A stretch of 64,000 bases of DNA. It comes from Symbiodinium natans (Eukaryota > Sar > Dinophyceae > Suessiales > Symbiodiniaceae). The translations under genes were made by a program, and so were the position numbers. The stretch covers positions 186,001 to 250,000 of the forward strand of contig CAJNDS010000480.1 of the NCBI GenBank assembly GCA_905221605.1. The letters run 5' to 3'. Below the pieces are notes generated by a model that was not told the origin of the DNA, did not search any database, and saw only the letters and a list, made by a program, of their open reading frames with translations. This document shows positions 17,387-38,320 of the stretch, in pieces (the stretch's first letter is position 1; every line of letters begins with the position of its first letter).

Positions 17387-17391
17387 CTAAG

Positions 17392-17648
17392 TGTGGATTT
17401 TCTGTCCCGAAAACCTCCCCTGCACAAGCCCTGAAGCAAGGAGCTCTCGCCGTCGCTGTTGTGGCTTGGGCAGGGTGGGACAAGCTTAAGCTTTAGCTAG
17501 GCCAACCGGCTACGCAGATCCCGAGCAAGGAACGCTCGCTGACAAAAAGCTCTCTTACGTGTGCGGACCTCGTGCGCCGCCTTGCCACATTTTCGCTGTG
17601 TGCCCTTTTCTCCTTCTCTGTTGCACCCAGCTTGGCCGTAAGTTAAAG
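17392..17648 (+). repeat. Left LTR of outer element
   Basis: 257-bp direct repeat of 34502-34762, starting TGTGGATT and ending TTAAAG, preceded by target duplication ctaag. Confidence 0.95.
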
Positions 17649-17649
17649 T

Positions 17650-17664
17650 TGGCAGCGGAGCCGG
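17650..17664 (+). promoter_or_regulatory. Primer-binding site of outer element
   Basis: TGGCAGCGGAG starts one base after the left LTR. It resembles the complement of a tRNA 3' end (CCA terminus) and parallels the TGGTAGCGGAG of the inner element at the same spacing. The donor tRNA is not established; an initiator-Met-like tRNA is the usual copia primer. Confidence 0.65.
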
Positions 17665-17853
17665 TCGCCCCGGCTTCCGCCTTTTCCGGACCCAGGCCCC
17701 TTGGTGTTGGCCCCTGCTGCCGCTGCGCTCGCTCCTGACCTTCGCCCCTTTCGGCTCTGTCCTCTGCCTGCCATTGTGCAAGTTTGTGTGTGTGTGTGTG
17801 CACACGGCTGCTGCCTTATCTCTGCCTCACCACTGTGGACTTGAGGCTGCTTT

Positions 17854-18155
17854 TGTCAGTTCAGTCGCATCAGGAGGCGAGTTTGTAAACTACAGCTGTG
17901 ATCATGGCAAAGATGTGAGAGCTTGTGAACATCGCTCGCGCTTTCCGCAGGCATGCCTTTGGCCAGATTTCCTTTGAGCTACGTGTAGCGATTCTCAGAC
18001 ACCTTAGGTGTCAATTCTCCATCGTGCCATAGGCATATCCTGCAGCGGAGCTGCACATTTCGAAGCCGGAGCGCTTCTTCGAGGAAAACGACCGCGACTG
18101 CATCTTCGGCATTTCCACAGCCCCCTTCGCTGCAGATTCCACATTGCTACCGATA
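17854..18155 (+). repeat. Left LTR of inner element
   Basis: 302-bp direct repeat of 26539-26840 with one substitution; starts TGTCAGTTCAG and ends TACCGATA. Confidence 0.97.
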
Positions 18156-18156
18156 T

Positions 18157-18171
18157 TGGTAGCGGAGCCCG
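18157..18171 (+). promoter_or_regulatory. Primer-binding site of inner element
   Basis: TGGTAGCGGAG one base after the left LTR closely resembles the complement of the initiator methionine tRNA 3' end (TGGTAGCAGAG in common eukaryotic versions). Confidence 0.75.
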
Positions 18172-18365
18172 AGAAAGGGTTCCTGAGGCTACCGCTGCGC
18201 GATTCTGCTTTCTGACATCTTCGCTGAGAAGCACCAGTGTTGGATCTGATCTGTTCAAGACGAGAGCAAAGAGTCCAGGCCGGCGGAGGTCGTGCTTCAC
18301 CTTTTTCAATTCGTTTCAGTGCAAGTTTTGTCCTGCAGAACCGTTGAGAGATCCTGTTGCTGGTG

Positions 18366-21300
18366 ATGGCTGATTCCAAAGAGGACCGTTTTCAGTCCTG
18401 CCCCTGGAATGGCGATGCTTCCTCATGGCCGGACTATGTTCGGCGGGTCCGCTTGCTGTTCGAAAAGACAAGGCGTCGAAATCGCCACCGCCTGGCACCT
18501 GAGCTGGTGAGCCAGCTGTCAGGGCGTGCGTGGGTGGTGACCCAGGAGGTCGACCACAGAGCCCTGGTGAGAAGGGATGGAGTCATATACCTCCTTCGAT
18601 TCTTGAGGGAACGGTTGGGCAGGACAGCCATTCCAGACGTGGGCCTGAGGCTAGAGGATCTGATGATCCGCCTTCGGCGACAGCCCGGCACCTCGATTGC
18701 CTCGTGGGCAACTCAGGTGCGGCAAGTTTATCGCAAGGTCCAGATTGCCCTCTTTCGTGCGAGAAAGGCAGCTGAAAGCAAGTATGGCGTCTCTGGCGGC
18801 AGCGGACGTACGGCCCTTGGAGAGTCTCACTCCTCTGCTCCTTCGTCTCGGCGCCGAAGTCAAGAGACTCAAGAAGAACCGCTGCCTGAAGAAGAGACTT
18901 CTCCCGGCGGGCAGTCTTCGCGTCTTGGCGAAGATGAGGGAGAGGCTGAGTTTGACGATGACCTTGAGAAAGAACTGGAAGCAAAAGGCCTCGGGAGATC
19001 CAGCAAGTCACGTCGCTTCCGGAGACAGGAGAGCGATTCTGAAGACTCGGAGCATGCCCTTCAAGATCTTCAGATGTGGGATGCCTACGAGGAGATCATG
19101 GAGGATGTGCTACCGTCCGAAGTCTTAGGCTGGCTTCTTCTTCGTAGAGCAGGTCTGAGCACCGCTGCTCGGCTGGCTGTGCAGGCCTCGGCGGGCAATA
19201 GCCTCCGCTTTGAAGACGTGGAGCACGCGATGCGAGGCATGGAGGAAGAGTTGACTCAAGACGAGCAGCGCCGACAGGCTCTTCATCAGCGTCCCCGTCG
19301 GACCTTCTGGATGGAGGAGAATGGTGAATGGGCGATGGTGCTTGCCGACGAGGATGAAATTGGTGAAATGTTGGAGCACACAGAGATCTTCCATGTAGGC
19401 GCGAAGCTTCCGTCGCAAGTCTATGAGAGCTCCAGTGGCATGGATGATGGGAGCTATCAAGACTCCAGTGGCTTCTGGCATCAAGTGACAGACGGGAGCT
19501 GGTCTTGGTGGATGGATGGCGGCGATGGCGAGTTCTACCACCATGATGACCATGGGATCTATTGGTCCTGGACTGCGTATGAATCCTCATTCATGGCAGA
19601 GCTGCCTGATGAACAGCAGAAAGAAGTGGCAGAGGCATTCGCAGCAGCCGAGGCCAAGCAAAGATCCTTCGTGGAGGCGCGCCAGGCGATGAAAGCCAAG
19701 ACCTTGAGCCGTGGCTTTTATCCTTTTGTTCCATCGTCCAAGGGTAAGCCTAGGTTTAAGGGTAAAGGTAAGGGTTCTAAAGGAAAAGGAAAAGGGAAAG
19801 GCGTGTCTTCATCCTCTTTTTCTTCTACCTCCTTGACCAATGGCTCAGTAATGCACACCACAGACATCATGGCAATGGTCCCTGGAGATCCAAGCTTCAG
19901 TGGCTGCTTCATCTGCGGAGATAAGGGTCATGCATTCCGTGACTGTCCCAAGAGGCTTCGCTCGAAGGGTTCCAAGGGCGGCGTCAAGGGTGGCTCTCGA
20001 TCCTTCCTCATTGACGATGCCCCGGTGTACATGATCAGCGATGGCGCGGAGTATCAGCACGAGATCGATCCCGACTACACGTTCGCCTCAGCAGTGCCCA
20101 ACGGTGAGTTCGTTGGATCGAGTCCTGAGATGGAAGGGTTCGCAGTGCTCGACACCGGCGCTACGGAGACCGTCGGGAGCCTCCCTGCGCTTGAGTCTCT
20201 ATTGCAGAAGCGGTTTGAGATTCAAGGGTCTGTTGAGGAGCTTGAAGTTCGCGCCAATCCTGGAAGGAGATTCCGATTCGGAAACGGCTTGTGTGAGCAC
20301 GCGACTAGCCATGTTCTCTTGAATCAGACTGTTGGGTCTCTGCATCTGCGGTTAGGCATCTTCACCCTCGATGTGGAACGTGTCCCCATCTTGATCGGTA
20401 TCCGAACCCTAAACAAGATGAAAGCCATCATCGACACCAACCGCAGTATAGCCGTGTTCGCTGCTGTGGATCCTGGTTTAGGAATACCCCTTCAGAAGAG
20501 CCGGTCAGGACATCTTCTCCTCAACCTGGCCCGTGACTGGCTTGAGCAAGGGTTCCGGCTAGACTCCATACCTTCACACATTCTCCAGGAGCCCGAAGAA
20601 GAGCAAAATTTCGTTGAAGATGCAAGCCCAGTTTTTGCAGTGATCAGAGAGGAAGTGCAAGCGCCCGCTCAGCCTCATGAAGCACAGTGTGATGCGGTTC
20701 ATGTCAGCCTTCGTGATGCAAGACATGGTCCCCCTGCTGACAGTGATGTACACGTGACTGCTGTGGCGCATGAGCACCATGCACATCCCGATGGCACTGA
20801 GGCTCGAGAAATTCGAACATCAATGCGCCCTGCGACATTGCTTCCCCTGCTCACTCTTGCTGCGCTTCACTCTCATGGCGGCAGCCTCCGAGATCGAGAA
20901 GATCAAGGAGCAAGTGTTGGCAGCCGAGATGGCGTCTTCCTTGGACGAGTCATCAACTACAGTCCGCAGTGCCAAGGATCCTCGAGCAGTGGGGGCACCG
21001 TGCTTTTCCAACCACGAGGTTCAGCCACCGGGACGAGGGTCCAAATCCGGGGCCAACTCCCACGCAATGTGGCGCGTTTGCCGCACGTGCTCCCTGAGGT
21101 TGCTGTATGTTCCTCGTACCGGAGCACATGCCCTGCATCGCTCGCCCGGCCCCTTGAGCTCGGACACCCAGAAGCAAATCCACGAGATCCAGGCCAAGGG
21201 CGAGAAGTTGGAAGAGAACATCAACCTGAAGGATCGCACGATTGGACTGGATGCAGCCGAGAGGTCGGCGGAACAACGCCTTGCCCAGGTGAGAGCTCTC

Positions 21301-24300
21301 AAGGCAAAGGAAGTGAAGCCGAAGGCTGCAACCATGACGGAGGCTCCTGTAGCTACAGTGGCCAGAAGTCCCACCAGCGCAGCATCATCTCTGGCAGGCT
21401 ACGAGGTCTTGCCGACAGCGTCCCCGCCACCGCCGGTGATCAATGTGGACGAGATGAACGCCGCTCCGGGACGCAAGAAGCCTCGAGAACAAGCGGCCGA
21501 AGAGTTGGAGTATGCCAGTCGACAGGAGTAGAGGACTTTGATGCGCTGGCGGTTGAGGAGGCCTACAATCTCCAGCAGGCTGAGTCTGAGGCCTTGGCAG
21601 CAAGTCTCTTGGCCACTAAGAACTACTCTTTTGAGGCATGTGAAAGTCTGCTGCGTGGTGCTGATCTTTCAGCTCCAGGTCCAAGTCGGTCAATCCTGCA
21701 ATCCAAACGTGCTGAGTCCTGGGTGGCAGTCCTTGGCTTGTTCACTCATGGAGGAATTGTGGGTCAGACCAAAATCACCATCAGAAGGCCTCGCCTCTGT
21801 GAGTACTTGAATGCATTCCTTAGTGCTCATCTACCCGCAGGCCAAACATGGACTTCCATCAGCATTGCGTTGAATATGAAGGCTGTTCCGCACACTGACA
21901 GCAACAACCAAGATGAGTCTTGGAATTGGCTTCTCGGACTTGGATCCTATACTGGAGGAGATTTGTGGCTTGAAGCTCATTCTGAAACCTTCAATCCCGA
22001 GGATCCCAGCGTCTTGAGTTGGAGATCGAAGCCGGATGGTTCGAAGGCACTTGGGCATCGAGTTGAGACTCGCCATCGGTGCGTCGGATTCCGACCTCGA
22101 CAACTTCATGCAACGAGTGAGTGGACTGGTGACCGCCTGGCGATTCTGGCATATACATCTCGAGGCCAAGATCGCATCCCTGATGGAGTCCGGCATGACC
22201 TGAAGGCCTTAAAATTTCCCTTACCGCCTGCTAAGAAGCGCCGCCAAAAGATCGAAGAGGTGCTGGAAACTGAAGCGGGTGATGAAGGGGGAGACATGAT
22301 GCCCATCCAGTATGTCCTCCCTGATGCCGATAAGGCCTTCCTTGTGAATGCGCTCGAGAACCATGAAAAGGATGTGCAGGCAGATGTGCAGCCCTTTTGC
22401 CGACAGGTTCGTACAGATCTACTGGAGGCGATGGGGCCCATGTCTAGTCCTCTGAGTCTGGTGGTTCAGTCCAAAGGTGGGCAAGTCTTTGAGGCTGGAA
22501 CACACAACGGCTTCGATATGACAACGAAGGGCGGCATGCGAAAGCTTTGCGATACCATCAAGGAGCTGAAACCTCGATATGTATGGCTTCATGTCCCAGC
22601 AGGCCAAGTGGAAAAATCCTTGACATCGATGGCTGACAATGAGCAGGCATCTTACCAGAAGAAGATCAAATCCCAACATCGTCACCGCAAGGTTGTGCGT
22701 CATTGCTTGATGGTCTCACAAACCGTGCGTGAACAAGGTGGCCACGTGATCTGGGATATACTCCCTGAAAGTCCCTCGTGGAACTATTGGGAGTCTAGAT
22801 CTTTCTGGCATGATCAACGAGAAAAGGATGGGTGGACTGAGATCAAGGTCCCACAGGGTCACAAGATCAGATGTACTGATTCAGATCTCCTGAAGATGGT
22901 TGATGTGGCAGTGGCAAAACAAGGCCGAGCCGAAGGTCCGACCACGGCCTCATGTTTGACATCGTGTGCGGCGTGCATTATGGCCCTTCAGCATGAGGTG
23001 TCGGAAGCCTATGTGGTGGATGAAAGCGTGTTGAGAACCATGACGACGCAAGAACTTCAGGCTGTGATGGATGTGGTGGCAAAGCTTCATCGGAAATTGG
23101 GGCATCCTTCGTCCCATTTGTTGGTGAAGAATCTTCGGGCCCGTGGCGCGGATGATCGCTTGCTGGCGGCAGCGCAACAGTACAAATGTAGCGAGTGCCA
23201 TGAAGGACAAAGTAAACTTCCTGCTCCGGCCGTGAACCTGAACAAGTCGGACACGTTGTGGCACACTCTCCAGCTTGATGGCATGGTGTTTAAGTTTGAA
23301 GACAAGGTCTACCACTACTTGGTCATGATGGACGAGGCATCCGGTTATGCGGTGATCCACGAGATGAATGTGCACTCGAAGGATTCGGCCGAGAACATGG
23401 ACACCGTGAGTGTGATTGATGTCCTTGAGAAGGCCTGGTGCCAGTACTTTGGAATGCCAAATACGATCAAGCTGGATCCTGAAGGAGCTTTCCGAGGAAC
23501 CTCGTTGGCGCTGTGGTGTGCTGAGAGAGGAATTGTCCTCGAGCATGTGCCTGCCGAGCTCCATGCCGCTATCGGTGATGTGGAAAGAGAGATAGGGTAC
23601 TTGCGAAGCAAAATGGAAGCTTTCCTTCGACAAGAACCGACTGATCCTACTCGGGCCGCGTATGCGATGGCAGCTGCGCACAACTCTCTGGCCCGAAATC
23701 ACGGGTTCAGCCCTCTACAATGGGCTGTGGGTCGTGACCTGGCTCCTGGAGGACATGCGGTCGATGGACCTGGAGATTGGGTTGCCATGCAGAATGCCAC
23801 AGCTGAAGAGCCAAGTTCTATGCGAGATCATTTTGAGCTTCGGAAAAGGGCTGAACAAGCCTTTCAGCAGCAAAGGGAGCGAGATATGCTCTCTCGAGCT
23901 GTGAATGCACGGACGAGGCGAAGCATTACCTTCGTGCCGGGGGACACGGTGTTCTACCGGCGGATCAAGCCACCAGCTGAAGGAGGAGCCAACATGCTCA
24001 TCGACCGCGCTCGTGTCAACGTCGGGCGATGGTGTGGTCCAGGCCGAGTACTGGCTGCTGAGACTCGGGTTGAGGATCATGGAGCCACCCGGAAGGCAGG
24101 ACATTACATCTGGATCATATCCCAAGGTCGCCTGAAGAAGACGCACTCTTCCCAGCTGAGACATGCATCCGAAAATGAACGGCTTATTGCAAATGCTTCG
24201 GGACAAATGTCACTCCCATGGACCTTGTCGTCGCTGACATCTCTCCTTGGTTCTGGACAATTCGATGATGAAACTTCCCTTCGCCCTGTTCGAAGAGACG

Positions 24301-26573
24301 AGAGACATGGCAGAGGTTTAAGATCGCGTACCCCAGCTCGCCAAGTGGATGTGCCCCGAGAGCTTCCTCCCCGACCATCGGACAGGCAGCGACGTGAAGA
24401 AGAACTGGAGGAGCCTGTAGAGCCAGAGACTCCTTATCTTCCCCCGAGGTTGCCAGTCAAGCCACGCGAAGAAGGACAAGGTGAAGTTGGTTCTTCTGAG
24501 GAGGAACTGATACCAGCTGGAGAACATGATCGGCCTCGCAAAAGGGAGAGATCTCCTGTCCTAGGGGATCTCTTGAAGGAAGACGTGGATGTGCACCGGC
24601 TCCTGAACGATCCGTCGTACTTGCCCAAGGGACAGACTGCAAGGTCTTCAACTTCTTCGAGGGCCCGGGGTTCGGCCTCAGCGTCAATCATGACATCCCA
24701 GGAATGTGAAGATCATGTCTTTGCCGTGGAGATTGATGCCCCGCGAGACGAGCAGGAATGGAGGAAACTTGTGAAATGTCCCTCAAAATTTGTGGCAAAA
24801 GGTGTGCAAAAGGGGATAGAGGTCAGCTGGCACAAACTCAACGTCCAACAGAAGCAGGCCATGAACGAGGCAAAACAACTAGAAGTTCGGCAATGGTTGG
24901 CGACTGCTGCGTGCAAAGCAGCTGAGGAGGTCATCCCCAAGGAGCAGCTACTCAAAATGCGTTGGGTGCTCACCTTTAAGGGTACTGCGGACCCTTCAAG
25001 GGTGAAAGCCAAGGCTAGAATCGTCATACTCGGTTATAGCGACCCGTCTCTCCTCGAGTTACAGACCGCGTCGCCGACGATGAGCAGGTTGAGCAGGCAA
25101 CTGTTCTTGAACGCTTGTAGTGTGAACTCTTGGCGGGTTCTTAAAGGCGACGTGAAATCCGCCTTCTTGCAGGCCGAATCACCGCAAGCTGCTCGAGGCA
25201 TCCACGCGCTGCCAGTTCCCGAACTGGCGACCGCTTTGGGAGTCAGTGAAGAGCAGGCAGTTGTTCTCCTGAAATCGTGCTATGGGTTATGTTCGGCTCC
25301 CAGAGAGTGGTATGATGATGTTCATCACACCATTGAACGGCTGGGAGGCGAGAGGTTGACTACTGATCCATGCGTTTGGCGGATCACCAAGCTCGTCAAC
25401 GGCAAGAAGGTCGTAGTTGGCCTGGTGACGTGTCATGTTGATGATTTCCTAATGGGTGGAGATGAGAATGATGAAGCCTACATAGCCTTTTTGGAGGGTT
25501 TTCATGCAAAATACTCATGGACTCCTTGGGAACATGACTCCTTCATGCATTGCGGTGTCTCTGTATCTCAACATGCTGATTGCTCCTTCACTCTGGACCA
25601 TAGCGAGTTCTGTCGGGAACTGAAGCAGATAGAGGTTCGTGGCAACTTGGATCGTAAGATGACCGAGTCTGAGGTGAGTCAAGTCCGAGCGATTTTGGGT
25701 TCAGTGCAGTGGCGTGTCTTTCAAACTGCCCCTCAACATGCATCTAAGCTTTCCATGCTGCAATCCATGATTGCACAACGTGATGCCAGCATGATTCCGA
25801 CAGTGAACAAATTATGCCGTGAAGTATATGCAGGACGAGATGTTTCTACAAATGTTCAATCCTTAGGAGCGAAGTCCATGCAAGATGTATGCTTCATTGC
25901 ATGGTCCGACGCTGCGCTTGCGAATCGTCCGGATATGACAAGCACAGGAGGATGCATCATCGGGGCCATGCACGTGGATGCGGCAAAGCAAGGCTATGGA
26001 AAAGTGAATTCCATCTCATGGCGAAGCGGAAAACTATCCCGCGTCGCTCGCAGCAGTCTCGCTGCAGAGACGCAAGCCCTTGCTGATGCAGAGCAAGACC
26101 TGATGTGGTGTCGTCTTGAATGGGCGGAAATGTCAGGCTACGAAGTCAATTTGGCTAAGACATCTGAGGCAGTGAAGTCGGTCCCTGGCTACTTGGTCAT
26201 TGACGCTAAGGCTCTCTATGACTCCATCCAAAAGGGCGAGATCGGTGTCAACATGCGTGACGAGTACACCTCCTTGGAGCTTCTCGCTTTGCTTCAACAT
26301 CTCAAGGCTCAGAATACGGAAGTGCTCTGGTGTGACTCAGATCATCAGTTAGCTGACGGATTGACAAAGGTTCAGAAGCAGGATGTTTTGCGGAAGTTCC
26401 TTGTGACAGGAACGTGGAGGCTCCGGTACAGTGGAGCTCTGTTGTCCGCCAAACGGCGGAGAGCAGCAACAGGGATGACAGATCCGACTTCTCCAAATCC
26501 TGCCCCGATCACAGCTTCCGTTTATGGTTTTTGGGGTATGTCAGTTCAGTCGCATCAGGAGGCGAGTTTGTAA
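18366..26573 (+). CDS. Gag-Pol polyprotein of inner copia element with TET/JBP-like oxygenase and degenerate methyltransferase-like domains
   Basis: An open frame of 2735 residues from the first ATG (18366); the stop lies 35 bases inside the right LTR. Domains in order: Gag (1-510) with CCHC knuckle C514-x2-C-x4-H-x4-C527; aspartic protease with DTGA at D596; a hidden out-of-frame part (about 805-1058); a dioxygenase-like domain (about 1100-1270) with H1176-x-D1178, N1181, H1248 and R1257; a methyltransferase-fold remnant (about 1375-1530) with A1412 at the catalytic cysteine position; integrase HHCC zinc finger (about 1574-1617) and core D1638, D1704, E1740 (DD35E spacing); reverse transcriptase with HVDD (D2359, D2360); RNase H with its acidic residues ending in ADGLTK. 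Reverse transcription and integration functions look complete. Roles of the two accessory domains are inferred from motifs only. Confidence 0.93.
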   Translation: MADSKEDRFQSCPWNGDASSWPDYVRRVRLLFEKTRRRNRHRLAPELVSQLSGRAWVVTQEVDHRALVRRDGVIYLLRFLRERLGRTAIPDVGLRLEDLMIRLRRQPGTSIASWATQVRQVYRKVQIALFRARKAAESKYGVSGGSGRTALGESHSSAPSSRRRSQETQEEPLPEEETSPGGQSSRLGEDEGEAEFDDDLEKELEAKGLGRSSKSRRFRRQESDSEDSEHALQDLQMWDAYEEIMEDVLPSEVLGWLLLRRAGLSTAARLAVQASAGNSLRFEDVEHAMRGMEEELTQDEQRRQALHQRPRRTFWMEENGEWAMVLADEDEIGEMLEHTEIFHVGAKLPSQVYESSSGMDDGSYQDSSGFWHQVTDGSWSWWMDGGDGEFYHHDDHGIYWSWTAYESSFMAELPDEQQKEVAEAFAAAEAKQRSFVEARQAMKAKTLSRGFYPFVPSSKGKPRFKGKGKGSKGKGKGKGVSSSSFSSTSLTNGSVMHTTDIMAMVPGDPSFSGCFICGDKGHAFRDCPKRLRSKGSKGGVKGGSRSFLIDDAPVYMISDGAEYQHEIDPDYTFASAVPNGEFVGSSPEMEGFAVLDTGATETVGSLPALESLLQKRFEIQGSVEELEVRANPGRRFRFGNGLCEHATSHVLLNQTVGSLHLRLGIFTLDVERVPILIGIRTLNKMKAIIDTNRSIAVFAAVDPGLGIPLQKSRSGHLLLNLARDWLEQGFRLDSIPSHILQEPEEEQNFVEDASPVFAVIREEVQAPAQPHEAQCDAVHVSLRDARHGPPADSDVHVTAVAHEHHAHPDGTEAREIRTSMRPATLLPLLTLAALHSHGGSLRDREDQGASVGSRDGVFLGRVINYSPQCQGSSSSGGTVLFQPRGSATGTRVQIRGQLPRNVARLPHVLPEVAVCSSYRSTCPASLARPLELGHPEANPRDPGQGREVGREHQPEGSHDWTGCSREVGGTTPCPGESSQGKGSEAEGCNHDGGSCSYSGQKSHQRSIISGRLRGLADSVPATAGDQCGRDERRSGTQEASRTSGRRVGVCQSTGVEDFDALAVEEAYNLQQAESEALAASLLATKNYSFEACESLLRGADLSAPGPSRSILQSKRAESWVAVLGLFTHGGIVGQTKITIRRPRLCEYLNAFLSAHLPAGQTWTSISIALNMKAVPHTDSNNQDESWNWLLGLGSYTGGDLWLEAHSETFNPEDPSVLSWRSKPDGSKALGHRVETRHRCVGFRPRQLHATSEWTGDRLAILAYTSRGQDRIPDGVRHDLKALKFPLPPAKKRRQKIEEVLETEAGDEGGDMMPIQYVLPDADKAFLVNALENHEKDVQADVQPFCRQVRTDLLEAMGPMSSPLSLVVQSKGGQVFEAGTHNGFDMTTKGGMRKLCDTIKELKPRYVWLHVPAGQVEKSLTSMADNEQASYQKKIKSQHRHRKVVRHCLMVSQTVREQGGHVIWDILPESPSWNYWESRSFWHDQREKDGWTEIKVPQGHKIRCTDSDLLKMVDVAVAKQGRAEGPTTASCLTSCAACIMALQHEVSEAYVVDESVLRTMTTQELQAVMDVVAKLHRKLGHPSSHLLVKNLRARGADDRLLAAAQQYKCSECHEGQSKLPAPAVNLNKSDTLWHTLQLDGMVFKFEDKVYHYLVMMDEASGYAVIHEMNVHSKDSAENMDTVSVIDVLEKAWCQYFGMPNTIKLDPEGAFRGTSLALWCAERGIVLEHVPAELHAAIGDVEREIGYLRSKMEAFLRQEPTDPTRAAYAMAAAHNSLARNHGFSPLQWAVGRDLAPGGHAVDGPGDWVAMQNATAEEPSSMRDHFELRKRAEQAFQQQRERDMLSRAVNARTRRSITFVPGDTVFYRRIKPPAEGGANMLIDRARVNVGRWCGPGRVLAAETRVEDHGATRKAGHYIWIISQGRLKKTHSSQLRHASENERLIANASGQMSLPWTLSSLTSLLGSGQFDDETSLRPVRRDERHGRGLRSRTPARQVDVPRELPPRPSDRQRREEELEEPVEPETPYLPPRLPVKPREEGQGEVGSSEEELIPAGEHDRPRKRERSPVLGDLLKEDVDVHRLLNDPSYLPKGQTARSSTSSRARGSASASIMTSQECEDHVFAVEIDAPRDEQEWRKLVKCPSKFVAKGVQKGIEVSWHKLNVQQKQAMNEAKQLEVRQWLATAACKAAEEVIPKEQLLKMRWVLTFKGTADPSRVKAKARIVILGYSDPSLLELQTASPTMSRLSRQLFLNACSVNSWRVLKGDVKSAFLQAESPQAARGIHALPVPELATALGVSEEQAVVLLKSCYGLCSAPREWYDDVHHTIERLGGERLTTDPCVWRITKLVNGKKVVVGLVTCHVDDFLMGGDENDEAYIAFLEGFHAKYSWTPWEHDSFMHCGVSVSQHADCSFTLDHSEFCRELKQIEVRGNLDRKMTESEVSQVRAILGSVQWRVFQTAPQHASKLSMLQSMIAQRDASMIPTVNKLCREVYAGRDVSTNVQSLGAKSMQDVCFIAWSDAALANRPDMTSTGGCIIGAMHVDAAKQGYGKVNSISWRSGKLSRVARSSLAAETQALADAEQDLMWCRLEWAEMSGYEVNLAKTSEAVKSVPGYLVIDAKALYDSIQKGEIGVNMRDEYTSLELLALLQHLKAQNTEVLWCDSDHQLADGLTKVQKQDVLRKFLVTGTWRLRYSGALLSAKRRRAATGMTDPTSPNPAPITASVYGFWGMSVQSHQEASL
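20790..21531 (+). CDS. Frame-swapped segment inside the inner polyprotein
   Basis: Between about 20790-20880 and 21531 the main frame gives a serine/glycine/arginine-rich text unlike a folded protein, while the +1 frame gives a coherent one: a helical stretch (ASEIEKIKEQVLAAEM), a zinc-type pattern (C..H further upstream, then WRVCRTCSLR), and a second charged coiled-coil-like stretch. The +1 frame runs into a stop at 21529-21531, exactly where the main frame resumes with sensible sequence (VEDFDALAVEEAYNL). Two compensating indels, either real or sequencing errors, would explain it. I infer that the ancestral protein used the +1 text here. Confidence 0.65.
21650..22180 (+). other. TET/JBP-like 2OG-Fe(II) dioxygenase-like domain (in inner polyprotein)
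   Basis: Residues about 1100-1270 carry HTDSNN (iron ligands H1176 and D1178, with N as in the HxDxxN of TET/JBP enzymes), then LGLGSYTGGDLWLE, a typical strand and glycine turn, and later LHATSEWTGDRLAILAY with H1248 as third iron ligand and R1257 for 2-oxoglutarate. TET/JBP enzymes oxidise 5-methylcytosine or thymine in DNA. Order and spacing fit the double-stranded beta-helix fold. Substrate and activity are not shown; another 2OG oxygenase subfamily is possible. Confidence 0.7.
22455..22950 (+). other. Degenerate methyltransferase-like domain (in inner polyprotein)
   Basis: The text VFEAGTHNG, then RYVWLHVPAGQ, then RRKVV..., then IWDILPESPSWNYW follows the same order as the methyltransferase-like domain of the outer element (VFWEVYSGTGN, HVVWLAPPCP, IEYPKTSLAW). 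In place of the PPC cysteine stands A1412, and the glutamate before the proline of the third motif is lost. The fold may persist but the catalytic residues do not. Confidence 0.65.
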
Positions 26574-26840
26574 ACTACAGCTGTGATCATGGCAAAGATG
26601 TGAGAGCTTGTGAACATCGCTCGCGCTTTCCGCAGGCATGCCTTTGGCCAGATTTCCTTTGAGCTACGTGTAGCGATTCTCAGACACCTTAGGTGTCAAT
26701 TCTCCGTCGTGCCATAGGCATATCCTGCAGCGGAGCTGCACATTTCGAAGCCGGAGCGCTTCTTCGAGGAAAACGACCGCGACTGCATCTTCGGCATTTC
26801 CACAGCCCCCTTCGCTGCAGATTCCACATTGCTACCGATA
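26539..26840 (+). repeat. Right LTR of inner element
   Basis: 302-bp copy of 17854-18155, one substitution at 26706, followed by target duplication gcttt. The polyprotein stop codon lies within it. Confidence 0.97.
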
Positions 26841-26941
26841 GCTTTTTCCCTTGCCAGCCAACCGGCGCTGTGCCGCCGTGGGCACGCGTCTGCAGTGTTC
26901 TCCGGCCGTTGTCCCTGTCCTTCTGTTAGCCTTCCGACGCC

Positions 26942-29791
26942 ATGGCTTCTCCCTCCGCGCCCTCTGCTGGCCCTTCAGGTACTTCTGCTGAGTTTGTTCG
27001 TGACAACTACATACCTGTCTTTGACAACAAGCCCTCGAGCTACCGTGAGTACAGACAGCGTTTGATGTTGTACTTCAAGAAGATGAAGCTGTTGAAGCGC
27101 ACGTCTGAGGCTACAATAAACCTGCTGACCTCGCTCACCGGTACAGCGTGGGCCAGGGTTGAGCATCTTTCGGAGACGGCCCCCGACAAAGAAAATGGTT
27201 TTGATTTGGTATTGGCAGAACTGGACAAAGCCTTCCGCTACGACAATCGGGTTGAAATGCCCCGTGCTATAGACAAGTACTTCTATGCTCTGCAGCGCCG
27301 CCCAGACCAGACGCTCTTGCAGTACACTGGAGAGGCTAGGGATGCCGTTCGTGAGCTTGAGAAACACGGCATTGCCTTGCCCAGCGAAGTGCAGGGCTAT
27401 ATCTTGCTTAAGAAATCGGGCTTGTCGCCCGAGCAGAAACAGCTGATCCTGAGCCAGGTCGGTGCCAAGCTGACCCCTGACAAGATCGAGGAGTCGATGT
27501 TTTTCCTTTTGGGCCAGGACCACAAAGCTGCAGCTCGACAGCCGCCTACCCGAACCTGGCACCGTGGTGGTTCAAAGTCTGCCTCATCCGGCACATGGCG
27601 CCGATCTTATGGATCGGCCCATCTGGCGGATGATGGGCAGACCTGGTCCGACTGGGACGGCGACGATGACACCGCCTTCGTGGCCGAGGATTTTGAGGTC
27701 TATGAGGAGGACGCTCAGTGGCAGGACGACAGCTACCTGGACGCTCTTGAGCCTGAGGAGACCGAGTACGCTTACTATGAGGACATCGCCCAGGATGACG
27801 ACGAGGCCTATGAAGAGGCCTATGCTTCGTACATAGACGCTCGCCGCCGTCTCGCGGATGTCAAGGCCTCCCGAGGCTTCTTTCCCGTGGTCGCTCTTGC
27901 TCCTTCTGCCGACTCCTCTCCCTCTTCTCTTCAGATCCCTGTAGGCCCCAGTAGCCGCCCTAAGGGTAGGGGTAAGTCTAAGAGTAAGGGTTCTTCTAAG
28001 GGTCGTAGTCCCCCTGTTAAGGGAAACTCTGGCAAAGCCGCTGCCCGTGCAAAGGCCACCACTTGCCCTCGTTGCGGTCAGCCTGGCCATTGGGCATCGC
28101 AGTGCCCCATGCCACCTAGCTCCAGCCCCTCCGTTGCTTCAAGTCCTTCAAAGCGTCCTCGGGACACTGTGCACGTTGCCGCCGACTTGCCCTGTGCCTT
28201 GGACTTGGCCCATGCTGTTGATGCTGCCTTGGTTGTCACTGAGGACGGCAACCTTGTTGCACAGCAAGACGGCGGAGCCTCCGCCATGTTGGGTGGCCAC
28301 CGTCCCGTTATGCAAGCCATAAGCCACCTGCTTTCAAAAGGCGTGTCGCCAGCCAACCTTGCCTTCTCCCGTGCAAACCGTTGCTTCAGGTTTGGTGGTG
28401 ACAACACAGCCCTTGCTACCTGGTCCGTGCACTTGCCTGTGTTTGTGCGTGGAGTGCCCGGACGACTTCAAGTCTTCATCGTTGAGGGCGACACGCCTCT
28501 GCTCGTTGGCCGGCCTATCCTTAAGGCGTTGCAAGTCAGAACCGACTTTGAACTTGACCTTTGCAGTGTGTTGGGCGGTGAACCGACCGCCGCTTTGCTT
28601 GGCCCTGGTGGTGAGTTCATGTTGCAGCTTGACGAAGGCCTTGACTCCGACTCAGTTCTTCAGCCGTTGGCCTTTGACCTTGTGACCGAGGAGTTGGCTA
28701 CCCTGGCATCCCCGTGTGACCCGCGCTTGCCGCTCCTCACTCTTGCCGACTACCTTGCTGATGCGGGCCGTGAGGGCCCTGACGTGGACCTTGCCTTCCC
28801 CACCGCCTCGGCGCCCGATGCCGACAGTGCCACTGCCTTGGACTCTCCTTCTGCCGAAACAAGTGTCGACCCTAGCGTTCATGCTCCTGTCCTTTCGCCC
28901 GTAACGCCTAAGCTTCTTAAGTCTTTGGAGGTGTCCGCTCGCCAGGCAGTCAATGCCACCAATAAGGCCTTGGAGGAAGCCCTGTGGTCCTCACCTGCCA
29001 CACCGCCTGTGTTTTGGGAAGTTTATTCTGGCACTGGCAACTTGTCTGCTGAGATGACCCGGCGTGGTTTTGATGTTCGCACGTTTGACCTTCCTGAGTG
29101 GGACTTTACAAAGCCTTCCGAGCGCCGCCGCTTCTTGAACTTGTTGCACCATGAGCGCCCGCATGTTGTGTGGTTGGCGCCTCCGTGTCCCTTGTTGTGG
29201 TCCCCGCTCCAGAACTTGACTTCCAGTGACAGCTACCAGCAAGAAATCTTGGAGCTAGACCGCCAGCTCCACCATGCAAGCCACCTCAAGCTGTCTCGTC
29301 GTGTGTTCGACTTCCAGCTGTCCACAGGTCATGTCGCAGTGATTGAGTATCCTAAGACAAGTCTTGCTTGGAGGACGCCAGCCTTCCGTGGAATTTCTGG
29401 TTGGGCTGCCACCCTTGACCTGTGTGCTGTTGGTGCTCGACTTCCCAACCAGCACGGCCGACTCACCCCAATTAAGAAAGCAACCAGGCTCCAGGTTACT
29501 CATCCCGAGTTGTGTGAAATGCTGAGCATCAGGTGCCCCGGCCATTCATTTCACTTGCCTTTGGTTGGCCAATCCCCTCGCATTGGCTCGCGCTCGGCCG
29601 CGGCTGCTGCCTACCAGCCAACAATGTGTCGCAAGCTTGCCGATGCTTTGCAGACTGCTGTTGATGTTGCACTGGCGCGCCCTGTCTTTGAGAAAGCCTG
29701 GTTCTGCCTCGGCCTCCTCCGACATCCCTGCCGTGGACTCTTCTGCTCCTCCTCCAGCTCCTGTGTCGCACACTCCCGAGCGTGCCGCTGA
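26942..29791 (+). CDS. Outer element: Gag, protease and methyltransferase-like domain
   Basis: Starts at an ATG in good context 101 bases after the inner insertion. Gag (about 1-370) is followed by basic KSKGSSKGRS text and a CCHC knuckle (C375, C378, H383, C388). The retropepsin region has D443-G-G-A-S where DTG or DSG is expected, then LLVGRPIL. Residues about 690-900 form a methyltransferase-like domain: EVYSGTGN (E693 on), FDLPEWDF, WLAPPCP with C749, IEYP with E802, and LTPIKKATRL. The product ends 30 residues past a +1 frame change at about 29690-29696, in AGAAAGCC. Upstream residues are in frame with the rest of Gag. The last about 30 residues after the shift are out of frame and meaningless. 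Confidence 0.9.
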   Translation: MASPSAPSAGPSGTSAEFVRDNYIPVFDNKPSSYREYRQRLMLYFKKMKLLKRTSEATINLLTSLTGTAWARVEHLSETAPDKENGFDLVLAELDKAFRYDNRVEMPRAIDKYFYALQRRPDQTLLQYTGEARDAVRELEKHGIALPSEVQGYILLKKSGLSPEQKQLILSQVGAKLTPDKIEESMFFLLGQDHKAAARQPPTRTWHRGGSKSASSGTWRRSYGSAHLADDGQTWSDWDGDDDTAFVAEDFEVYEEDAQWQDDSYLDALEPEETEYAYYEDIAQDDDEAYEEAYASYIDARRRLADVKASRGFFPVVALAPSADSSPSSLQIPVGPSSRPKGRGKSKSKGSSKGRSPPVKGNSGKAAARAKATTCPRCGQPGHWASQCPMPPSSSPSVASSPSKRPRDTVHVAADLPCALDLAHAVDAALVVTEDGNLVAQQDGGASAMLGGHRPVMQAISHLLSKGVSPANLAFSRANRCFRFGGDNTALATWSVHLPVFVRGVPGRLQVFIVEGDTPLLVGRPILKALQVRTDFELDLCSVLGGEPTAALLGPGGEFMLQLDEGLDSDSVLQPLAFDLVTEELATLASPCDPRLPLLTLADYLADAGREGPDVDLAFPTASAPDADSATALDSPSAETSVDPSVHAPVLSPVTPKLLKSLEVSARQAVNATNKALEEALWSSPATPPVFWEVYSGTGNLSAEMTRRGFDVRTFDLPEWDFTKPSERRRFLNLLHHERPHVVWLAPPCPLLWSPLQNLTSSDSYQQEILELDRQLHHASHLKLSRRVFDFQLSTGHVAVIEYPKTSLAWRTPAFRGISGWAATLDLCAVGARLPNQHGRLTPIKKATRLQVTHPELCEMLSIRCPGHSFHLPLVGQSPRIGSRSAAAAAYQPTMCRKLADALQTAVDVALARPVFEKAWFCLGLLRHPCRGLFCSSSSSCVAHSRACR
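29010..29640 (+). other. C5-methyltransferase-like domain (in outer polyprotein)
   Basis: The glycine-rich motif SGTGN (AdoMet-binding motif I type), an acidic FDLPEWDF, the catalytic-type APPCP with C749 (motif IV type) and an E-x-P motif (E802, like ENV of motif VI) occur in the right order. A later PIKKATRL and a C-x-GHSFH end complete the pattern. I recall published reports of DNA methyltransferases captured by dinoflagellate retrotransposons; whether this is the same family is not checked here. Activity is plausible, not shown. Confidence 0.65.
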
Positions 29792-30833
29792 TGAGCCTGC
29801 TGTTGCCCCTGCCGCACCTTCCGAGCCAGATGTGGTGAATCCTCACCGCAACACTGGTGTGTTGGAGCAGTTGCTTACAGAGCGCCCTGCCGAGGCGCGG
29901 CGCATTGTAGCCCGGTTGCACAAGAACTTGGGGCACCCCAGCCGGGACCAGATGGTTGAACAACTTCGCGCCCGAGGTTCTTCCAATGCCCTTCTGCAAG
30001 CCGCCCATGACTATGTTTGTCCTACCTGTGCTCAGCTGGCTCCTCCCAACCAGGTTCCCAAAAGTTCGCTTCGCTCTGCCACAAAGCTCAACCAGCGCCT
30101 CATGGCTGACACCTTTTGGGTGACCTTGCCTAAGGGCCGCACGGTCCCTGTGCTTTCCATGCTTGACGCAGCCACCAAGTATGTGGTTGCACGTCCCCTC
30201 GTCAGTGAAACCTCTGAGCAGTTCCTTCGTGCCTTGGAACGTGGTTGGGTTAAGTTGTTTGGGCCCCCGCATGTGTTGCAAGTTGACGCTCATCCTTCTT
30301 GGGCTTCTGCCGCTGTGCGTGACTGGGTCACTACCCATGGGGTTGAGTTGCTCATTAGTCCCGGTGAGGCACACCAACGTTTAGCCCAGGTCGAAAGAAG
30401 GCATCAGGTTCTCAGGCGTGCCATTGACGTATTTATGGCAGACACTGGAGGCACCACAATTGACGACTTGCGTCGCGCCTTGGACTTTCTTGTACCCCAA
30501 GTAAATAATACCATAAGTGTGCAAGGCTATTCGCCCACACAGTGGGTGTTGGGATACCAGCCCGACCTTCCTGGCATGCTCCTAGGCAGCAACGTTAACC
30601 CTAGTCACTTGGATGGTTCTCCCGACTTTCGTCGCAAGCTTGACCTTCAGTCTTCTGCAGCCAAAGCCATCATGTCCGCTGACAATGATGAGCGTTTGCG
30701 TCGAGCCTTGCTTCGCCAAAGCCGTGTGACTTCGTCGGTGTTCGCCGTTGGCCAGCGTGTTTACTACTACCGTGGGTACTGGTGTTGGCCCCCGCATCCG
30801 TTGGCGTGGCCCTGCCGTTGTTACCATGGTTGA
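29696..30833 (+). CDS. Outer element: integrase (frame fragment 2)
   Basis: Continues the polyprotein in the +1 frame after the shift at about 29693. A pre-integrase zinc finger (HKNLGHP..., ending VCPTC; about 29920-30030) is followed by the integrase core with D (30108), D (30285) and E (30393), 35 residues between the last two as in DD35E integrases. It ends out of frame after a second +1 change at about 30772-30778, in the GTGGGT sequence following VYYYR. No start codon of its own is expected. Confidence 0.9.
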
Positions 30834-31257
30834 GCAAGACAGCCGCGGACGCCAGTCCGTTGTGTGGTTAGTGCACGGTGCCCAGCTTATCCGAGCTGCC
30901 GCGGAGCACTTGCGTCGTGACTTCTCCGACTCAGAGCCTGTTGCCTCGCCCACGCAAGCCCTGGAAACCCTTCGTGGCCGCGGCACTACCTCCTTCATAG
31001 ACCTGCCGAGGACCAACCGGAGGGTCCCCAGGGATGAGGCCCACGCCATGCCTAGTGATGATGAGGTTGTTGAGCCGGACCCCAAGCGTCCCCGTCCTCA
31101 TGTTGCAGTGGCTCCTGACCCGTCGCATGTGACACCACCTTCCGTGGACTTGCCTGCACCCGCTCCTTTACCTAACCCTCCGACTCCTACTGTGGACTTT
31201 CGTGAAGCGCCCTTGCCGGACGACGCGTCCGATCAATTGGTCCGATCAATTGTCTGA
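30776..31257 (+). CDS. Outer element: integrase tail and linker (frame fragment 3)
   Basis: Continues after the second frame change with an integrase C-terminal stretch (RIRWRGPAVVTMVEQ...SVVWLVHGAQLIRAAAEHL) and a proline-rich linker. The frame runs into a stop at 31255-31257 just after a 13-bp tandem duplication (31227-31239 and 31240-31252), which is itself the cause of the third +1 change. Confidence 0.88.
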
Positions 31258-33997
31258 CGACGCCGCCGTGCCTTTGCCAGACTCCGACATGCACCCTCAG
31301 GTTTCCGTGCCCGAGCCTGCCTTTGAGCCTGCGCCTGCTCAGCCTTCGCCTGACCTTCCACCGGCCCCCGAGCCTGTGCCTTTTGGCCCCTTTCGTGTGC
31401 CCGCGCAGGAGACATTTGCAGAACGCCGTGCCCGCATCGACCGTACAGAAACCTTGCCTTTCCACCGCCAGCCTGCCGCAGACCGCTCACGGTCGCCTCC
31501 TCCCAGTGCCGAGCCGGCCCTCACAGAGCAAGCCCACTTCTGTGACGTGCTACCCCAGTCCACTCCTTGCCTGCCACCTGGCTGGACTATTGCCGGCGAT
31601 GGCCAAATGCACCTTGACTCCGTGCAGGACCAGTGGGAATTTGATGGCCGTCACCTTGTGCGCCGTCACTTCGTGGCCCGGGATCGTGCCTTTGATCCTC
31701 TTTCCCCTGGGGATTGCCCAGTCCCTGTGCACATGCTTAGCAAGGTGAGGCACACCTATCGCGGCCGGCGCCGCCACGATGACAGGTGGCGAGTTCATGC
31801 CCCGAAACGGGATGGTGGCCACTGGTGGACTGGAAAGACAGTCTTCAAGGTTCAGCCCAGGTATAGGCAGGAGGCGCATGACGCCTTTTACCAGGCTTCC
31901 GATGGACACAGTTCCTACGTTGGTGCTAAACGCAAGGCCGACTTGGATGAGAAGACCTTGAGTCTCAGTGACCGCCTTCTGTTCCAGGAGGCCAAGAGCA
32001 AGGAGCTTGCCAGCTTCTTCCAAAACTCGGTTTGGGATTTCGATCATGAGTCTTCCGCACCGTCCGGGCGCATCCTCAAAGCCCATTTCATCCTGAAGTG
32101 GTCCAAGAACCCCGACGGTTCTCCTCGAGCTAAAGCCCGCTTGATTGCCCAAGGTTTCAAGGACCCCGATGCCCTTGGGGGTCTTGTTGACCGTACTGCT
32201 CCGACCTTGACTCGTTTGTCTCGGCACATGCTGCTGTCACTTGCCGCCAACTTGGGTTGGGGTGCCGCCACGGGCGACATCAGCACAGCCTTCCTGCAGG
32301 GCAAGGAACACTCCACCGCTCGTACCTTGTGGATTCGTCTGCCGGCTGACGCTCGCAAGATGCTTGGGATTACCGAGCCTTCTGTTGTCATGAAATTGCG
32401 GAAGCCCATGTATGGGCTAGTGGATGCCCCTCGTGCTTGGTATTGTGAAGCAACCGAACGGTTGGAGCGCCTTGGCTTTGTTCGCCATCCTTTGGATCAG
32501 TGCCTTTTCTTGCTTTACGACTGGGAGACTTTGGACTCTCTTGGTCGTCCGCAACTTGTGTGTGCACTTGGGCTCTACGTGGATGACCTTTTGGCCATTG
32601 GCAACTCTGCCGACCCTCGCTACTGTTCCGCCCGGGACCGTCTGCAACAGACCTTTGTCTTCCGTGAGTGGCATGAGCGCAAGCCTTCCGTTGAGTACCT
32701 CGGTGCTGAGATCGAGCAGAGCCCCGAAGGCGTCTTGCGTTACCATCAAGCCAAGTACCTTTCCAAACTGCATCCCATCACCATACCGAACTCGAGGCTT
32801 TGCGACCCCACATCGCCTGTTACCGAAAGGGAGCGTGCCCAGCTCCGTGCCTTGCTCGGTGGACTTCAGTGGGTTGCCACCCAGTCCTCGCCGCATATCC
32901 AACCTCACACTTCCATGCTTGCCGGCCTTACCACCAAGGCAACAGTTTCGACCCTGCAAGCTGCTAACAAAGCCCTGAGGTTTGCTAAGCATAATGCGGA
33001 TGTTGGCTTAAGTTACCCTTACCTTGGCCCGGTGGATGAGTTGGTTGTGGTGGCTTACTCTGACGCTTCTTTCGCGTGCAGAGATGACCTGAGCAGCCAG
33101 GGTGGCTACCTCATTACTTTGTGCCACAAGGACGCATTGGAAAAGGGCAATGCTTTCACCTACCACGTGCTCGACTGGCGTTCCTTCAAGCTACCCCGTG
33201 TTGCCCGCAGTACCCTCTCTGCGGAAGGCCAGGCCGCAGCCGAAGCAGCCGATGCCCTCTACTTCACCTCCTTGTTTCTCAAAGCGTTCTTTGATCCTAA
33301 GCTGGACTTGAACTCTCCTGATGCCGCCCGTTTGCCCCACAGCTCTGCGCTTGTTGTGGACGCAAAGGCACTCTACGACCTGCTTCACCAAGATGAGTTG
33401 CAAGCCCGTCTTGGGGCTGAGAAACGTACTGCCGTGGAAGTGCTTGTGACTAAGCAGCGCCTGGTTGAGGCCTCTGCTGTCCCCAGGTGGGTGTCTTCCG
33501 AACGGCAACTTGCCGATGGGCTTACAAAGGAGAGCGCAACGCAATTGTTCGCCGACCGTTTGCGCACCCACAAGAACCGCCTAACTGACGACCAAACGTA
33601 CCAGGCCAAGAGACAAGCCTCTGCCACTGAGTTTGCCATTTCACGGCCCCAAGCACTCGCCTCTGCCATGTTTGCCTGCTGCCTCACCACTGCCCGGGCC
33701 GAGCCCATCAGCCCTCGGCCTATGAACTTTGTGGACGTTGCTCTTGTGACTTCCTGTCAGACCGCGTCCGGTCTCGTGACAGACGCCTGCCCAAACAGAG
33801 GCTACCTTCAGTGTCAGTGTGGCAATCCGGACAGCTCCCGACAAAACCCCTCTTTCGGTGAAAACCTTTTCCTTTCAGCCTCGTCGTCAAGTGTGACCGC
33901 GCAGCCTGTTGCATATCGCCGGGATTCCCTGCCAAGCAGCAACTCCCAGGTGTCGGAGGCTAGGCCGTTTCGCACTTCTCGACATGCCTTGGTTTAA
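31240..33997 (+). CDS. Outer element: reverse transcriptase and RNase H (frame fragment 4)
   Basis: After the duplication the frame gives a proline-rich linker, the copia-type reverse transcriptase (AKARLIAQGF, GDISTAFLQG, YGLVDAPRAWY, YVDD at 32576-32587) and RNase H (YSDASF, LSAEGQAAAEA, VDAKALYDLL, ADGLTKE). All catalytic acidic positions seen in the inner element are present. A C-terminal extension of about 130 residues of low similarity to anything I know precedes the stop at 33995. Confidence 0.92.
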
Positions 33998-34390: not shown

Positions 34391-34501
34391 TGCTCTTTTG
34401 CCCTGCTCTTTCTTTCTCCGTTTTTCTCGCTGTACAGCGACCACGGGCCAGTCCTGCTTTCAAAGCCCGGAGATGGTGCAATTATTTGTACCTTCCACCG
34501 G

Positions 34502-34762
34502 TGTGGATTTTCTGTCCCGAAAACCTCCCCTGCACAAGCCCTGAAGCAAGGAGCTCTCGCCGTCGCTGTTGTGGCTTGGGCAGGGTGGGACAAGCTTAAG
34601 CTTTAGCTAGGCCAACCGGCTACGCAGATCCCGACCGAGCAAGGAACGCTCGCTGACAAAAAGCTCTCTTACGTGTGCGGACCTCGTGCGCCGCCTTGCC
34701 ACATTTTCGCTGTGTGCCCTTTTCTCCTTCTCTGTTGCACCCAGCTTGGCCGTAAGTTAAAG
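34502..34762 (+). repeat. Right LTR of outer element
   Basis: 261-bp copy of 17392-17648; the only difference seen is a 4-bp CCGA duplication. Followed by target duplication ctaag. Confidence 0.95.
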
Positions 34763-34767
34763 CTAAG

Positions 34768-38237: not shown

Positions 38238-38320
<83 letters not shown>

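Follow-up and report, generated by a model that had tools for sequence, protein, structure and literature searches.

A putative TET/JBP-like dioxygenase domain inside the Pol polyprotein of a Copia retrotransposon family of Symbiodinium natans

Enzymes that act on DNA marks are already known from mobile elements, both as writers, in the DNA methyltransferase (DNMT) retrotransposons of Symbiodinium, and in fungal DNA transposons that bear TET/JBP genes. Iyer et al. (PNAS, 2014) reportedly described TET/JBP dioxygenases carried by fungal DNA transposons. In the passages of Kojima 2025 (PMC12730594) on this subject, fungal TET/JBP genes are located in DNA transposons (Kyakuja, Dileera, Zisupton, Plavaka, Helitron and others) and in no retrotransposon, and in the passages of PMC9289625 on plant Copia elements no domain gain was seen by its authors. 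The locus analysed here lies in a 64,000-nucleotide stretch of Symbiodinium natans DNA (contig CAJNDS010000480.1, positions 186,001 to 250,000; hereafter the window), where a Copia-type long terminal repeat (LTR) retrotransposon at 17854-26840 carries a 2-oxoglutarate (2OG)-Fe(II) dioxygenase domain inside its Pol, after the protease and before the integrase.

This Copia family is read here as one whose Pol-fused catalytic dioxygenase most likely acts on the element's own nucleic acid by oxidising a base, and the probability of this reading is put at roughly 0.55. Among the matches listed in a search of the open-access literature, no report of a Copia element or other retrotransposon with a TET/JBP-like dioxygenase was found.

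Catalytic residues and their conservation

The domain limits given in Table 1 were set by a hidden Markov model (HMM) of five sequences, the window's own among them, and residue numbers are counted from the first codon of the 2738-codon open reading frame (ORF) of the element. An earlier note, made from the letters of the window, had described HTDSNN, a GG turn, a His and an Arg with family-like spacing; the spacing is right and HTDSNN falls in the frame of this ORF, but the numbers given there (1176, 1178, 1181, 1248 and 1257) are each three too low, the correct residues being H1179, D1181, N1184, H1251 and R1260. Among all 127,996 codons in the window's six frames, HxDxxN occurs a single time, and the full pattern HxDxxN-GG-H-x8-R is likewise found at this site alone.

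The domain has a high copy number in its own genome, which was searched as a 759-Mb assembly of 2543 contigs. With the window's domain as the query, at least 146 scored matches were obtained out of 1546 first-look candidates (E 1.8e-37 for the best match that is not identical), and with a diverged copy as the query at least 150 out of 1560; both counts are lower bounds because the best candidates alone were scored, the two lists overlap with their union uncounted, and a few rows of the 150 are pieces of one place. Internal stops are found in 0 of the 146 matches and in 1 of the 150, which has two. In addition, a set of 5.8 billion proteins yielded four relatives (P0001-P0004, all ENA records), of which P0001 is a polyprotein of 1732 amino acids with the same domain at 34% identity. 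In P0004, of 658 amino acids, the dioxygenase domain precedes a large stretch that looks C5-methyltransferase-like by eye (FIEACCGSATL...PPCG) and has no Pfam match; such a pairing of oxidase and methylase within a single mobile protein, if true, would be of interest.

Sixty-one sequences were aligned: the window, 56 own-genome copies and P0001-P0004. The own-genome copies were recruited by similarity of the domain, so that copies lacking it are under-counted, and the unscored candidates lie outside the sample. Mean pairwise identity is 0.34; clustering at 80% identity gives 42 groups, and profiles were made from a thinned set of 32 members. In the domain, L009 does not differ from the window, and further copies are close. 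The HxDxxN residues H1179, D1181 and N1184, together with G1136, G1201 and G1233, are conserved in 61/61, and W1204 in 60/61. The H/D/H positions, which the earlier note had singled out for comparison across homologous elements, are indeed kept: HxD is invariant, and the distal H1251 is present in 59/61, the exceptions being P0003, with Arg, and L060, which ends before the site. R1260 is missing in the broken copy L060 alone (60/61). The distance from the second His to the Arg is 9 in 60/60, and that from the first His to the second varies from 60 to 74; fixed ligands with free loops between them are the prediction for an Fe(II)/2-oxoglutarate active site. Judged from this combination of HxD, His and Arg at constant spacing, the domain certainly belongs to the 2OG-Fe(II) dioxygenase superfamily, Pfam families of which match 12 of the 32 members.

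Purifying selection acts on the domain. The ratio of nonsynonymous to synonymous substitution (dN/dS) is 0-0.31 in 19 of 20 own-genome copy pairs, which have at least 80% of the domain's amino acids in common and reuse sequences, so that they are not independent; the remaining pair, at 0.90, differs at 4 sites. Six pairs have a dS of more than 1, and their ratio is 0.099-0.110; in 13 of the 14 closer pairs it is 0-0.31. Since the active-site set is kept in diverged copies and dN/dS is low, the domain is a constrained and long-standing part of these Copia elements.

Family affinity and the competing explanations

Within the superfamily, the domain most likely stands on the TET/JBP side as a divergent branch, an assignment that is favoured and unproven. 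In the Pfam search to which the earlier note had pointed, Tet_JBP (PF12851) is indeed the sole family matched by the window's domain, at 18.3-19.6 bits according to the ends chosen (E 0.0015-0.00055), but the score lies below the cut-off of 34.9 bits. Tet_JBP is matched by 10 of the 32 members (E up to 1), best by L037 with 28.9 bits (E 7.8e-7) and next by L028 with 27.0 bits. The prolyl 4-hydroxylase (P4H)-like family 2OG-FeII_Oxy_3 (PF13640) matches two members, L038 at 27.0 bits, the same as the printed cut-off of 27 bits, and L017 at 18.4, and none of the other 30, the window included; Tet_JBP is thus the nearest named family by sequence. Ten further Pfam families are each matched by one member (best E 0.0093), and P0001-P0004 match neither Tet_JBP nor 2OG-FeII_Oxy_3.

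In the passages of PMC12730594 on CcTET, Gly331, five residues after the first His (His326/Asp328), helps to recognise the substrate, and this enzyme is without the hydrogen bond by which conventional TET enzymes stabilise 5-methylcytosine (5mC). In the present alignment the same position is Asn in 61/61. HxDxxN is the TET2/JBP form of the motif, and the Asn at H+5 is presumably comparable to Asn1387 of TET2, an assumption for which no structural paper was among the matches listed in a literature search. The earlier note had taken HxDxxN as a TET/JBP feature; it is present throughout and yet is not diagnostic, as NgTet1 has HKDNLD and CcTET has Gly at H+5. Because NgTet1 has Asp there, the invariant Asn alone does not decide for TET/JBP. 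When the 32-member profile was aligned by hhalign with Naegleria NgTet1 (PDB 4lt5, 5cg8), H-x-D, H and R fell in register, as a likeness between the two, but without significant similarity (probability 2.9%, E 0.015), and the Arg of NgTet1 is at +10 from the His instead of the +9 found here. Against AlkB the same profile gave a probability of 3.5% (E 0.012), the aligned part lying outside the active site.

Structure and wider searches were also made. A first model from 5 sequences had a predicted local distance difference test score (pLDDT) of 45 and was left unused, and a second, of a shorter core of the same proteins, reached 61. With the latter, Foldseek gave nothing significant, CcTet ranking 3 and 7 (E 0.19 and 0.22) amid unrelated proteins; in a viral structure library, Sylvanvirus/phage entries named JBP1/TET ranked 7 and 38 (E 0.13 and 0.69). 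The models being too weak to decide, neither these entries nor CcTet were taken as evidence of family. The domain profile had a single and irrelevant match among PDB sequences, the window's domain had none in NCBIfam, and no relatives were found in viral contigs, prokaryote genomes or phages. Among PHROGs, 21 families were weakly matched by the 32 members and none of them by the window; all were regarded as chance matches, including the commonest, an endonuclease V family (4/32, best E 0.0045) and a queuine tRNA-ribosyltransferase family (3/32, best E 0.0042). Searches of the own genome with PF12851 and with NgTet1 returned nothing, the former being equally blank in control genomes, so that it is no proof of absence, and the latter being likewise uninformative.

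The closest competitor to oxidation of DNA is a 2OG dioxygenase acting on the RNA of the element, on N6-methyladenosine (m6A) or a similar base, by which genomic RNA would be shielded from host surveillance. It has its precedent in the orchid Gypsy element whose AlkB domain demethylates m6A RNA, as described in the relevant part of PMC9289625. It is nevertheless unlikely here: the AlkB motif R-x5-R is missing in 60/60, where the residue at R+6 is Y, F or H and never Arg, and the 12 Pfam families to which one or more of the 32 members gave a match include none of AlkB type. HxDxxN with an invariant Asn is not known as a feature of AlkB. Less likely still is a protein hydroxylase of the P4H/2OG-FeII_Oxy_3 type with gag or a host protein as its target: the two matches to that family stand against ten to Tet_JBP, and the 2OG ligand is Arg in 60/61, whereas in prolyl 4-hydroxylases it is usually Lys.

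There is a slight chance that the oxygenase activity is lost and the domain is retained in the polyprotein for structure or for binding nucleic acid, which would suit the Arg of P0003 in place of the distal His and the stretch next to the domain that is out of frame in the window's copy. Against this, the presumed Fe and 2OG ligands rank with the best-conserved residues of a domain that is variable at most other positions, and dN/dS is about 0.1 in the deeper pairs. That the motif arose by chance in a non-homologous polyprotein linker might be supposed from its shortness and from its first reading by eye, but this is refuted by the Pfam matches and by 60 homologues in addition to the window, every one of which has HxDxxN and almost every one the complete set.

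The carrier element, its frame and its sister loci

The element is of the Ty1/Copia type by its LTRs, its target duplication and its integrase lying before an RVT_2-type reverse transcriptase, with the reservation that the integrase match is a little below its cut-off (29.4 of 32.6 bits). Its features are collected in Table 1. It is young, as the earlier note had held: the LTRs agree at 301 of 302 bp, the single difference being A versus G at position 18021, and GCTTT is duplicated at both ends. The tract directly behind the 5′ LTR resembles a primer-binding site of the initiator-Met-tRNA type. A second genomic copy, on contig C2182, has both LTRs and an identity of 98.9-99.8% across four blocks.

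Table 1. Features of the Copia element in the window (strand and basis as noted)
Feature	Position	Strand	Basis
Target-site duplication GCTTT, 5′ copy	17849..17853	.	sequence
5′ LTR, 302 bp, TGTCAG...CCGATA	17854..18155	+	301/302 identity with 3′ LTR
Primer-binding-site-like TTGGTAGCGGAGCC, directly 3′ of 5′ LTR	18156..18169	+	sequence
ORF, 2738 codons, gag-pol, no internal stop	18357..26573	+	ORF list
gag CCHC zinc knuckle, residues 516-532	19902..19952	+	Pfam zf-CCHC weak, E 0.075, under cut-off; motif by eye
Protease motif DTGATE	20151..20168	+	by eye; without Pfam protease match
Stretch with +1-frame coding signal; 253-codon ORF, zinc-ribbon-like by eye	20770..21528	+	codon scores; match to sister L016
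2OG-Fe(II) dioxygenase domain, TET/JBP-like	21729..22238	+	five-sequence HMM; Pfam Tet_JBP 18.3-19.6 bits; kept in 61 sequences
HTDSNN, presumed Fe ligands H1179 and D1181, and N1184	21891..21908	+	HxDxxN 61/61
GG turn, G1200-G1201	21954..21959	+	second G 61/61; GG 45/61
H1251, presumed third Fe ligand	22107..22109	+	59/61
R1260, presumed 2-oxoglutarate carboxylate ligand	22134..22136	+	60/61, +9 from His column in all 60
Stretch between dioxygenase and integrase; decayed methyltransferase-like domain by eye	22434..22916	+	similar stretches in L014, L016, L018
Integrase, HHCC-like start by eye and rve core	23088..23540	+	Pfam rve E 1e-6, 29.4 bits (cut-off 32.6), residues 1638-1728
Copia-type reverse transcriptase	24951..25580	+	Pfam RVT_2 E 5.5e-14, over cut-off, residues 2199-2408
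3′ LTR	26539..26840	+	LTR comparison
Target-site duplication GCTTT, 3′ copy	26841..26845	.	sequence

The frame is open through the domain, as had been noted earlier, but just upstream of it, at about 20757-21528, the coding signal is in the +1 frame, with codon scores of 6 to 14 versus -1 to 6 in the ORF frame (tied in the first scoring interval); the ORF frame there is free of stops and has little or no coding signal. The 2738 codons of the ORF therefore do not form a single uninterrupted coding frame. Translated in the +1 frame, the stretch is similar to one that is in frame in the sister element L016 (34% over 122 amino acids, E 6e-18), its sole match among 20 loci. The second copy L009 has the same arrangement, so that a simple assembly error is not the cause, and the lineage may be damaged there or may use a deliberate frameshift. 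P0001 also has a stretch that resembles this one by eye. Behind the dioxygenase, a methyltransferase partner domain had been suspected by eye, but the stretch matches nothing in Pfam or NCBIfam, which thus do not support the suspicion; counterparts of it were found in 3 of the 20 loci.

These 20 loci, of 10 kb each, were picked for having the domain. In 12/20 the ORF that holds the domain has a match to gag or protease on the upstream side, and downstream in the same ORF an integrase match is present in 18/20 and a reverse transcriptase match in 15/20; six loci (L010, L011, L012, L018, L023 and L028) have gag and protease upstream and integrase and reverse transcriptase downstream, in ORFs of 2772-2882 amino acids. 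The ORF ends shortly after the domain in L009 and L014, has a stop ahead of the reverse transcriptase in L019, and continues past the fetched 10 kb in L017, L020, L024 and L025. L020 (on C2104) and L025 (on C1849) have a long extra stretch ahead of a distant integrase match, with the reverse transcriptase beyond the fetched 10 kb, and are possibly other element types. Across 12 elements, distances in the domain correlate with those in the reverse transcriptase (Mantel r 0.48, p 0.0004) and in the integrase (r 0.44, p 0.0004), so that recent capture by this one element was rejected. Both values are lower than the r of 0.92 between integrase and reverse transcriptase; the domain has long been associated with these elements, probably with some exchange.

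As for the surroundings, direct repeats at 17391-17660 and 34501-34774, 96% alike, flank both Copia elements of the window, so that the young element seems to have been inserted in the 5′ part of an older LTR element. The second Copia-type element lies downstream at 26942-33628, with a gag ORF at 26942-29791 and integrase-/reverse transcriptase-like stretches at 29850-30842 and 31922-33628; the domain HMM finds no dioxygenase in it. Ahead of its integrase, methyltransferase-like motifs (FWEVYSGTGNL...APPC) are seen by eye, without Pfam support. Elsewhere in the window there are a long repeat array rich in GGT/CGT (38219-38689) and 100 N in a row, probably an assembly gap (62169-62268).

Proposed role and comparison with known systems

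The earlier note had proposed that a retrotransposon carries its own base-modification oxidase, and this is supported in part. That a dioxygenase domain resides in the element stands; we infer the substrate and role as follows. The domain is very probably an active oxygenase, and its substrate is probably a nucleic acid base. By its polyprotein position the enzyme would be made in step with protease, integrase and reverse transcriptase, would be released by the element's protease, and would be packed with or near the element nucleoprotein, probably within the particle, so that the simplest target would be the element's own complementary DNA (cDNA) or RNA. DNA, treated in the TET/JBP manner, is somewhat favoured over RNA on three grounds, namely the affinity to Tet_JBP, the HxDxxN motif and the lack of the AlkB motif. 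In that case the 5-methyl group of a pyrimidine (5mC, or thymine to 5-hydroxymethyluracil, 5hmU) would be oxidised on new cDNA or a freshly integrated copy, as by TET/JBP, and the oxidised base would alter how host chromatin reads the new insertion. The benefit could, tentatively, be escape from, or use of, host DNA marks.

The host context speaks for DNA: according to the relevant passages of PMC5890265, CpG methylation in Symbiodinium is about 70%, as high as in mouse or human, and in Breviolum 5hmU is enriched on many repeat classes, the enzyme that makes dinoflagellate 5hmU being unnamed in the passages of PMC11071213 concerned. On the other side, none of the 32 members passes the Tet_JBP cut-off, and 20 of them match neither Tet_JBP nor 2OG-FeII_Oxy_3. 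The CpG methylation is also uniform and uncorrelated with expression, so that erasure of 5mC need not benefit the element; its purpose may be the making of an oxidised mark. It is a more doubtful proposition that this is the first retrotransposon family with its own TET/JBP-type DNA base oxidase, hundreds of Copia copies writing part of the dinoflagellate pattern of 5hmU or oxidised 5mC by hydroxymethylation of thymine (or 5mC) on cDNA or fresh insertions. If it were true, the genome-wide 5hmU of dinoflagellates and its enrichment on repeats might owe something to element-borne enzymes; and if DNA bases are oxidised, retrotransposition would be linked to 5hmU, with a testable origin for part of the mark.

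Among known systems, the Ty3/Gypsy AlkB (ALKBH5-like) elements of Phalaenopsis, as presented in part of PMC9289625, are similar in that a 2OG-Fe(II) dioxygenase was captured by an LTR retrotransposon. There the carrier is Gypsy and the enzyme a separate ORF2, near the host ALKBH5, with R-x5-R present and m6A RNA demethylated in vitro, whereas here the carrier is Copia and R-x5-R is lacking; if RNA were the substrate, LTR elements would have captured an epitranscriptomic eraser for the second time. The DIRS/LINE retrotransposons of Symbiodinium that encode DNMT (de Mendoza et al. 2018, PMC5890265) are likewise dinoflagellate retrotransposons with a DNA-base enzyme, but they write 5mC, and in the passages concerned the Copia elements have no DNMT domain; nowhere does the main text of that paper use the words TET, JBP or dioxygenase. 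Like the fungal transposons, the present elements form a mobile family in which many copies keep the frame of a TET/JBP-type or TET/JBP-like dioxygenase open; the HxD...H triad and the fitness argument are also common to both. The fungal systems, in the portion of the literature that describes them, are DNA transposons in which the TET/JBP gene lies beside the transposase, while the carrier here is a Copia LTR element with the domain fused in Pol between protease and integrase.
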